A stretch of DNA of 64,000 nt, from positions 1-64,000 of the forward strand of contig CANMOV010000007.1 of assembly GCA_947499565.1 (NCBI GenBank). The letters run 5' to 3'. The translations under genes were made by a program, and so were the position numbers. Position 1 is the first letter of the stretch. Each line of letters opens with the position of its first letter. This document shows, one piece after another, positions 55,627 to 57,187 of the stretch. The DNA is from an uncultured Croceitalea sp. GTDB taxonomy: Bacteria; Bacteroidota; Bacteroidia; Flavobacteriales; Flavobacteriaceae. Below the pieces are notes generated by a model. It was not told where the DNA came from, ran no database searches, and saw only the letters and a program-made list of their open reading frames with translations.

Positions 55627-57024
55627 CTAGATAGTTTCAGCAATTTCTAGTGCTTTGTTCAAAGCGCCAAGTTTATTATAGGTTTCCTGTAATTCATCTT
55701 CAGCATTTGAAGCCGCCACTAATCCTGCACCAGCTTGAAAATGAAGTTCATGGTTTTTGCTAAGGAATGTTCTAATCATAATGGCATGGTTAAAGTTTCC
55801 ATTAAAATCCATAAAACCAATTGCTCCACCATAATAACCTCTACTGGTTTTTTCATACTTTTCTATAAGCTGCATGGCCATATGTTTGGGAGCGCCGCTT
55901 AAGGTGCCCGCGGGAAATGTATCTGCTACAATTTTTAGTGTAGAAATATCTGACTTTTTCATCCCGGTAACTTTAGAAACTAAATGAATTACATGCGAAA
56001 AATACTGTACCTCACGATAGGTTTCTACATTCACAAGATTCCCATTTCTACTTAGGTCGTTTCGAGCTAAGTCCACTAACATTACATGTTCACTATTTTC
56101 TTTATCGTCCTGAGCTAATTGCTTTGCGAGTTCTGCATCCTTTTCATCATTGCCAGTACGTTTGTATGTTCCTGCAATAGGGTGAATTTCTGCTTTCCCA
56201 TCTTTTACAATCAATTGTGCTTCTGGAGAGCTACCAAAAATTTTGAAATCTCCATAGTCAAAAAAGAAAAGATATGGTGAGGGGTTTATAGAGCGTAATG
56301 CACGATACACGTTAAACTCATCACCTTTAAATCCTTGCGAAAACCTGCGAGACAGTACCAATTGAAAAACATCTCCACGTTGACAATGCTTTTTAGCTAA
56401 TGCTACATGATTTTTGAAAGCTTCATCTTCTAAATTAGTTTTTACTTCCCCGTCTTTAGAAAAATTATAGGAGGCAAAACTTCTTACTTTAAGTACTTGC
56501 TCTAACTGCGGAATATTGTTTTCAGTTTCAAAACAATGCGCAAAAAGATAGGCTTCGTTTTTAAAGTGATTAATTGCTATGATGTTTTGATAAACGGCAT
56601 AATAGATATCAGGAATTGCAACTGAATTATTTTTTTTTGAAATTTCAACATCCTCAAAATAGCGAACAGCATCATAGGCCATAAAGCCGAAAAGACCGTT
56701 TGTTATAAATTTAAAATTTTGATTGTCTACTTCAAATTTCTTGCTAAATGCGTCGATTTCTTGAGTAACTTCAATAGAATCAGTAATTCTAATCTCTTCC
56801 TTTAAACTATCCGGAAATTCTTTTACAATAACTTCATTTTCAACTTTAATAGAAGCTATAGGGTTGCAACAGATGTAAGAAAAGCTATTGTCATTGGCAT
56901 GATAATCACTACTCTCCAAAAGAATACTATTAGGGAATTTGTCCCTAATTTTTAAATAAACACTAACAGGGGTAATCGTATCCGCAAGTATTTTTTTATG
57001 ATATGTTTTTAGTTTGTAAGACAT
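55627..57024 (-). CDS. trpE: Anthranilate synthase component I
   Basis: TrpE makes anthranilate from chorismate with ammonia from TrpG. The 465-residue protein has the Trp feedback motif LLESS (35-39), so it is probably inhibited by tryptophan. It has catalytic-domain motifs such as RRFSQGF, AGTYKRTG, LVDLARNDLSR, FPAGTLSGAPKHMAM and GAIGFMD. I start at ATG 57024 rather than the GTG at 57036, because the family starts near MSYKLKTYHK. A leader peptide and terminator lie just upstream and should control it. Confidence 0.96.
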   Translation of the reverse strand: MSYKLKTYHKKILADTITPVSVYLKIRDKFPNSILLESSDYHANDNSFSYICCNPIASIKVENEVIVKEFPDSLKEEIRITDSIEVTQEIDAFSKKFEVDNQNFKFITNGLFGFMAYDAVRYFEDVEISKKNNSVAIPDIYYAVYQNIIAINHFKNEAYLFAHCFETENNIPQLEQVLKVRSFASYNFSKDGEVKTNLEDEAFKNHVALAKKHCQRGDVFQLVLSRRFSQGFKGDEFNVYRALRSINPSPYLFFFDYGDFKIFGSSPEAQLIVKDGKAEIHPIAGTYKRTGNDEKDAELAKQLAQDDKENSEHVMLVDLARNDLSRNGNLVNVETYREVQYFSHVIHLVSKVTGMKKSDISTLKIVADTFPAGTLSGAPKHMAMQLIEKYEKTSRGYYGGAIGFMDFNGNFNHAIMIRTFLSKNHELHFQAGAGLVAASNAEDELQETYNKLGALNKALEIAETI

Positions 57025-57045: not shown

Positions 57046-57075
57046 AAAAAGGCTTGTCGTGATGACAAGCCTTTA
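57046..57075 (-). terminator. Attenuator terminator of trp operon
   Basis: On the minus strand GGCTTGTC-like arms pair exactly (57071-57064 with 57058-57051), flanked by AAA on one side and five T on the other, about 22 bases before the trpE ATG. A strong intrinsic terminator in the leader of a biosynthetic operon is the mark of attenuation. Confidence 0.85.
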
Positions 57076-57098
57076 TATATTATTCAATAGGGACTAGT

Positions 57099-57152
57099 TC
57101 ACGAATGTTGTCGTAAATTATTCCACCACCAAGTTTTGTTTATTATTTTCAT
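57099..57152 (-). CDS. trpL: trp leader peptide
   Basis: The 17-codon frame encodes MKIINKTWWWNNLRQHS and ends in TGA. It has three successive UGG Trp codons at residues 8-10. Its ATG lies 5 bases after a consensus -7 element, so the mRNA is almost leaderless. An intrinsic terminator starts about 24 bases after the stop. The bases ACGACAA just after the Trp codons repeat the 3' arm of the terminator, so they could compete for its 5' arm when the ribosome stalls at UGG. This matches the logic of E. coli trp attenuation, though the pairing is only five strong base pairs and needs testing. Confidence 0.9.
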   Translation of the reverse strand: MKIINKTWWWNNLRQHS

Positions 57153-57157
57153 TGGTT

Positions 57158-57187
57158 CAAATATAGAGAATGCATTTTAACTATCAA
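57158..57187 (-). promoter_or_regulatory. Promoter of the trp operon
   Basis: TTG (57187-57185), a 19-base spacer and TATATTTG (57165-57158) match the Bacteroidota consensus exactly, giving a start near 57150-57153, at the leader peptide ATG. Confidence 0.85.

Follow-up and report, generated by a model that had tools for sequence, protein, structure and literature searches.

The sequence upstream of trpE on the minus strand of the stretch of marine flavobacterial DNA analysed here (64,000 nt, hereafter the window) very probably encodes a ribosome-mediated trp attenuator of the Bacteroid-trp type (RF01692). Attenuation of trpE coupled to Trp codons had been proposed in an earlier, sequence-only reading of this DNA, and it is the best model, since a Trp-rich leader and a terminator are conserved in relatives. 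The conserved competing RNA segment, however, is most likely UCGUGA at the end of the leader ORF, as judged from related leaders, rather than the ACGACAA segment favoured in that reading. The model is built on sequence anatomy, conservation, covariation of the pairing zone and folding energies.

Anatomy of the trp leader and its RNA family

All of the leader features lie on the minus strand. The promoter (57187-57158) is composed of TTG at 57187-57185, a 19-nt spacer and TATATTTG at 57165-57158. The leader ORF (57152-57099) starts with the ATG at 57152, reads MKIINKTWWWNNLRQHS over 17 codons and ends with UGA at 57101-57099; three UGG Trp codons occupy 57131-57123. An intrinsic terminator stem-loop, with an 11-bp stem (AAAGGCUUGUC/GACAAGCCUUU) and a 5-nt loop followed by a U run, spans 57074-57048, and the AUG of trpE at 57024 lies 23 nt beyond the terminator region. 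The promoter, the 17-codon frame with its three Trp codons and the terminator shortly before trpE had all been pointed out from the sequence, and all are present. The locus thus has two hallmarks of attenuation, a short leader ORF with tandem Trp codons and an intrinsic terminator between the leader and the first gene.

The downstream operon (57024-50484, minus strand) was recognised as trpE-G-D-C-F-B-A from Pfam families and gene order. The families are, in turn, anthranilate synthase I, class-I glutamine amidotransferase, the glycosyl transferase family of TrpD, IGPS, PRAI, a PLP-dependent enzyme (TrpB) and Trp_syntA. Where the Pfam family is a general one, the trp name is our assumption from gene order and established knowledge. 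One more hairpin, with a run of T, was spotted by eye on the minus strand of the window at 57236-57203, 5′ of the trp promoter and behind the ORF at 57833-57261, which we take to be YceI-like. This hairpin, absent from the terminator scan listing, is probably the terminator of that ORF.

When the whole window was searched with cmscan against 4227 Rfam families, the single match at a curated cut-off was RF01692 (Bacteroid-trp), at 57172-57064, with 54.4 bits against a cut-off of 49 and over the full model (1-131); weaker Rfam matches in the window all fell below their own cut-offs and were disregarded. The score exceeds the curated gathering cut-off and the site lies upstream of trp genes in Bacteroidota, as expected of a member of the family. 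The locus fits the entire model, with its promoter-proximal leader, Trp codons, protector helix and GGCUUGUC end. The model, on the other hand, stops at the unpaired 5′ arm of the terminator, and it contains neither the complete terminator nor the UCGUGA antiterminator.

Bacteroid-trp is listed by Weinberg et al. 2010 (Table 1, PMC2864571), a 2019 paper on Flavobacterium psychrophilum locates a Bacteroid-trp element upstream of the trp operon and draws a parallel with attenuation in E. coli (PMC6414381), and strong clues for leader-peptide attenuation were found in the same species upstream of amino-acid biosynthesis operons (PMC9723704). These sources and RF01692 contradict the earlier impression that the design had not been described in flavobacteria, and the Rfam family together with the published F. 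psychrophilum work rules out novelty of the element itself. The locus belongs to a catalogued RNA family, and the element is ordinary for flavobacteria. No mention of a UCGUGA antiterminator was found in the literature searched, which was covered mostly at listing level and outside subscription papers and supplements.

Conservation of the leader in relatives

We compared two main sets of loci. The named set comprises the best 80 of 579 TrpE relatives, the leader playing no part in their selection; the closest among these best 80 are Maribacter and Croceitalea, and TrpE identity is 85-93% for the first ten of them. The family set comprises 110 of the 149 other places from the RF01692 listing (at least 150 including that of the window), namely the 30 best as loci and 80 picked down the list without a formal rule, and it is biased to high-scoring matches of a model that itself contains UGGUGG. 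A WWW leader was found in 79 of the best 80 of the 579 named relatives, the remaining locus (L115) ending at a contig edge; in 69 of them it lies at most 400 nt from trpE and in ten it lies farther upstream. A terminator 3′ of the leader was detected in 69/69 named and 105/110 family loci; the five family loci without one by the rule used are absent from the pairing counts (n=105). The conservation of the UGG run and the terminator, which the sequence-only reading had proposed to check, was thus observed.

In 10 of the 80 named relatives, a similar small ORF lies between the leader terminator and trpE, with the leader and terminator retained upstream of it (L120, L121, L140, L141, L142, L145, L149, L150, L160 and L180). 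These ten loci are included in the WWW count and lie outside the 69-locus counts. The inserted ORF is a GIY-YIG domain by Pfam in both of the loci scanned, L120 and L149, and it would come under Trp control if co-transcribed. Separately, two contigs of one Allomuricauda taeanensis assembly (L126 and L127) each carry a trpE with an identical leader peptide, reflecting either duplication or an assembly artefact.

RF01692 was detected at E <= 0.001 in 208 of 299 same-family genomes, with 184/299 above the cut-off, and in 30 of 296 genomes of a phylum sample; 28 of the 30 belong to the same family, and the other two share its order and its class, respectively. A TrpE match (E <= 1e-60) was obtained in 72 of the 91 RF01692-negative same-family genomes (62/80 and 10/11). 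Their readable trpE loci carry a Trp-rich leader ORF in 65 of 68 cases, with 2.1 expected from shuffles (37 WWW, 26 WW and 2 WxW), the other 3/68 being without one. At class level (L272-L317, 44 readable of 46, nearly all from other families, including the same-family L304 as well as L285 and L307 from one genome), a Trp-rich leader was found in 33/44 readable loci, with 1.8 expected, and none was found in the stretch searched in 11/44. Most of the class-level leaders have WWW or WW, and WRW, WLW or WCW occurs in L276, L280, L285, L294 and L272. L308 (G525, a genome of another family), one of the 11, has an RF01692 match about 1.3 kb upstream of trpE.

Ten whole loci were also scanned with cmscan. 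RF01692 was matched in two of them (L111 and L120) and fell below the cut-off in the other eight, L149, L197 and the class-level L273, L275, L283, L301, L306 and L312; these six class-level loci have Trp-rich leaders. These results suggest that the real family extends beyond what the Rfam model captures. Besides L115, loci L211, L277 and L288 end at a contig edge. Partial TrpE matches of G079, G147, G186 and G232 and the second match of G178 were left out, while G290 contributes two loci. The relatives share ancestry, so the family counts are not independent events and overstate independence.

The promoter is also conserved in position. TAnnTTTG ends 3-9 nt 5′ of the leader ATG in 62 of the 69 named relatives, against 0.84 expected from shuffles, most commonly with a gap of 5 nt (43/69), which is also the gap in the window. 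In F. psychrophilum, the sigma-A box TAnnTTTG is located at -12 to -5 of the mapped starts, and leaderless mRNAs make up only 5.5% of those with mapped starts (PMC9723704). From the 5-nt gap and this box position, we predict a 5′UTR of about 1 nt, with the transcription start at 57153, and hence an almost leaderless trp leader mRNA. The remark in the sequence-only reading that the leader ORF begins almost at the mRNA 5′ end, which it considered unusual, agrees with this start predicted from promoter spacing. Gaps of 16-20 nt occur in 49/110 loci of the family sample, and therefore a near-leaderless start would be typical of only part of the family.

The antiterminator and the proposed switch

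The candidate antiterminator (57104-57057, minus strand) pairs UCGUGA (57104-57099) with UCACGA (57062-57057), which consists of the last four bases of the terminator loop and the first two of the 3′ arm; folding predicts that AC and AGUC extend the pairing to GU and GGCU in the 5′ arm of the terminator. Hexamer pairing of the UCGUGA:UCACGA type was found in 60/69 named leaders (1.4 expected), 102/105 family leaders (2.9) and 23/31 RF01692-negative leaders (1.6), the last group being restricted to WWW leaders with a terminator. Exact pairing of a hexamer with the loop and 3′ arm was found in just two of the seven class-level WWW leaders, with 0.6 expected. The CGUGA core is present in 194 of 206 leaders, and absent from 12, and in 193 of the 194 it starts 18-21 nt past the last Trp codon. 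The stop codon lies 6-30 nt past the last Trp codon, before, inside or behind CGUGA. Since the position of CGUGA is nearly constant while the stop codon varies, the RNA segment is kept independently of the end of the reading frame. In the window, UCGUGA lies 18 nt past the last Trp codon and includes the stop UGA.

A ribosome covers about 12-13 nt from its A-site. Given this footprint, a ribosome halted on any one of the Trp codons would leave all of the CGUGA positions uncovered ahead of it. In two leaders, CGUGA lies 10 and 12 nt behind the stop codon; the other positions are reachable by a ribosome halted at the stop.

Within the family, the canonical terminator hardly varies, so that covariation was tested mainly outside it. 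In 31 class-level leaders that have a terminator, the zone 9-36 nt past the last Trp codon formed a duplex with its own terminator top of -13.21 kcal/mol, as compared to -9.23 kcal/mol when the terminators were swapped, and none of 20,000 permutations equalled the native pairing. The own terminator was the single best partner in 3/31 and in the top tenth in 15/31. The control zones 0-20 and 25-60, both of which overlap the tested zone, gave p values of 0.22 and 0.57, with the own terminator best in 2/31 and in the top tenth in 6/31 in each case. The results agree in RF01692-negative family members (n=61) and in a set reduced to a single locus for each distinct terminator top (n=71). Examples of the pairing are GAACAGC with GCUGUUC (L306), CGCUGUGA with UCACAGCG (L301) and CGUAAU with AUUACG (L263). 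The partner varies at class level, from the 5′-arm end and loop (L273, L275 and L283) to the loop and 3′ arm (L301 and L315). Covariation, which the sequence-only reading had put forward as a check, is therefore seen, though with the UCGUGA-type zone and in a sample mostly from other families. Conservation, position and covariation together point to a leader segment that would be free during a Trp stall and pair with the terminator region.

The leader RNA as a whole folds to -30.3 kcal/mol, whereas 200 shuffles average -13.97 (sd 2.82); this z of -5.79 indicates structure beyond chance. The minimum-free-energy fold without a ribosome predicts a protector (1:2) hairpin over the Trp codons at 57132-57084 (minus strand), which contains UCGUGA and which the earlier picture of leader folding had omitted. 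Its stability relative to shuffles has a z of -2.93 in the window, and the mean z is -1.70 for the named leaders (n=65) and -2.27 for the family leaders (n=104), and the consensus helix of RF01692 coincides with the same region. Folding thus predicts a protector pairing that would block the antiterminator when no ribosome is stalled, as trp attenuation calls for.

To represent a stalled ribosome, only the RNA downstream of it was folded. With the ribosome on the second or third Trp codon and the transcript 96-100 nt long as measured from the AUG, the pairing UCGUGA-AC-AGUC : GGCU-GU-UCACGA forms, and the mean probability of the outer six pairs (UCGUGA:UCACGA) is 0.80-0.96. With the first Trp codon in the A-site, the probability is 0.92, 0.81 and 0.13 at 96, 98 and 100 nt, and without a ribosome it is 0.23, 0.06 and 0.00 at the same lengths. 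Once the complete terminator is out, it beats the antiterminator at equilibrium in every state, so that the switch must act kinetically. Other attenuators likewise switch kinetically.

An RNAalifold consensus of the CGUGA-to-UCACGA segment recovered just the outer helix, which had been preselected by the cut, and thus provided no evidence; single-sequence folds with shuffled spacers were used in its place. Shuffling the spacer makes the UCGUGA-to-UCACGA segment less stable in 85% of the 47 named leaders, 95% of the 97 family leaders and 94% of the 17 RF01692-negative leaders, while the spacer of the window is hardly more stable than its shuffles (-9.3 versus -9.1). In named (5.49 versus 5.14, n=47) and family leaders (4.96 versus 4.68, n=97), the leader does not clearly pair with more 5′-arm bases than it does with shuffled spacers, and the values are 4.65 versus 4.87 in the 17 RF01692-negative leaders. 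Only the outer helix is therefore well supported. The antiterminator is predicted to cover the 5′ arm of the terminator as well, and the means of blocking the terminator is less certain.

These folding results bear on a scheme in which the leader and terminator are conserved while read-through is set mainly by leader translation, Rho or a protein, without Trp stalling and an antiterminator. A near-leaderless start could be regulated in itself, termination is favoured in all states at equilibrium, and the cover of the 5′ arm is no higher than in shuffles, all of which would suit such a scheme. It is nevertheless improbable, as the relatives examined retain tandem Trp codons in a constant position, and covariation of the pairing with the terminator was seen in the zone where it was expected but in neither control zone.

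Another unlikely candidate is the ACGACAA segment (57114-57108), which was taken in the sequence-only reading as a repeat of the terminator 3′ arm that competes for the 5′ arm. The repeat exists in this genome and includes the start of the 3′ arm, but it also takes in the last two loop bases. As the antiterminator, ACGACAA would pair with UUGUC of the terminator 5′ arm. Counting only Watson-Crick pairs, such pairing occurs in 11/69 named leaders against 4.4 expected, but in 3/105 family leaders against 3.5; when G-U pairs are allowed between a leader pentamer and the 5′-arm end, it is at or below chance, in 16/69 against 16.0 and 7/105 against 22.0, respectively. GACAA itself is rare (7/69 named, 3/105 family and 4/31 RF01692-negative leaders). 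The duplex of ACGACAA with the 5′ arm has an energy of -4.6 kcal/mol, as compared to -7.9 kcal/mol for the UCGUGA pairing, and is thus weaker by 3.3 kcal/mol. Moreover, a ribosome on the third Trp codon would extend into ACGACAA, given the footprint above, and the stalled-state folds select UCGUGA. ACGACAA was therefore rejected as a conserved antiterminator, and we consider it very unlikely to be the switching segment. T-box or TRAP-type tryptophan sensing, both known trp controls in other bacteria, is very unlikely. The Rfam scan of the whole window matched RF01692 alone at a curated cut-off, and a T-box was rejected for lack of a match at that level.

For attenuation through UCGUGA, the preferred reading, we infer the start site, ribosome stalling, co-transcriptional timing, 5′-arm cover and regulatory effect as follows. 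Transcription would begin roughly one nucleotide ahead of the leader AUG. In the absence of a loaded ribosome, the protector hairpin (57132-57084) would form and hide UCGUGA, and the terminator would halt transcription. With ample charged tRNA-Trp, the ribosome would reach the UGA and mask UCGUGA, again allowing the terminator to form. When Trp-tRNA is scarce, the ribosome would stall on UGGUGGUGG, opening the protector hairpin and leaving UCGUGA free to pair with UCACGA as it emerges from RNA polymerase, so that trpE-A would be transcribed. The pairing of AC-AGUC on the terminator 5′ arm would probably assist that of UCGUGA with UCACGA.

Comparison with known attenuators

We lean towards a single homologous design, in which Trp attenuation is widespread upstream of trpE in the class Bacteroidia, well beyond RF01692. 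In this design, the antiterminator strand would keep a near-constant distance past the last Trp codon (18-21 nt in the family and roughly 10-20 nt elsewhere) and coevolve with the terminator, while the stop codon moves freely; the Maribacter-Muricauda leader would lie on an almost leaderless mRNA (predicted 5′UTR of 0-4 nt), tying ribosome loading to promoter geometry. What this analysis adds is the assignment of the antiterminator strand, with its spacing and covariation, a broader range for the design and a near-leaderless start that is predicted and conserved. The analysis corrects the likely switching RNA segment, and it yields a covariation-backed antiterminator and a ribosome-spacing rule that are testable by a few point changes.

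The E. coli trpL attenuator shares with the locus described here its tandem Trp codons and the proposed interplay of a protector, an antiterminator and a terminator. It differs in that here the conserved candidate antiterminator strand includes the stop codon and would pair with the loop of the terminator together with two bases at the start of its 3′ arm, and in that the leader begins close to the predicted 5′ end. Such a nearly leaderless trp leader is unusual, yet has a precedent in trpL of the alphaproteobacterial Sinorhizobium meliloti. The S. meliloti trpL/rnTrpL transcript has the AUG of its short Trp leader ORF at the very 5′ end and forms a leaderless attenuator, whose leader RNA and peptide act also in trans (PMC7298713). 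The likeness lies in the leaderless trp leader, which is predicted here from promoter spacing. The closest counterpart is the F. psychrophilum trp leader, the same element before a flavobacterial trp operon and already likened to E. coli attenuation; the accessible text of the two papers (PMC6414381 and PMC9723704) gives no antiterminator segment, leader peptide sequence or switch test, and it is in the antiterminator segment and leader peptide specified here that the present description differs from it.
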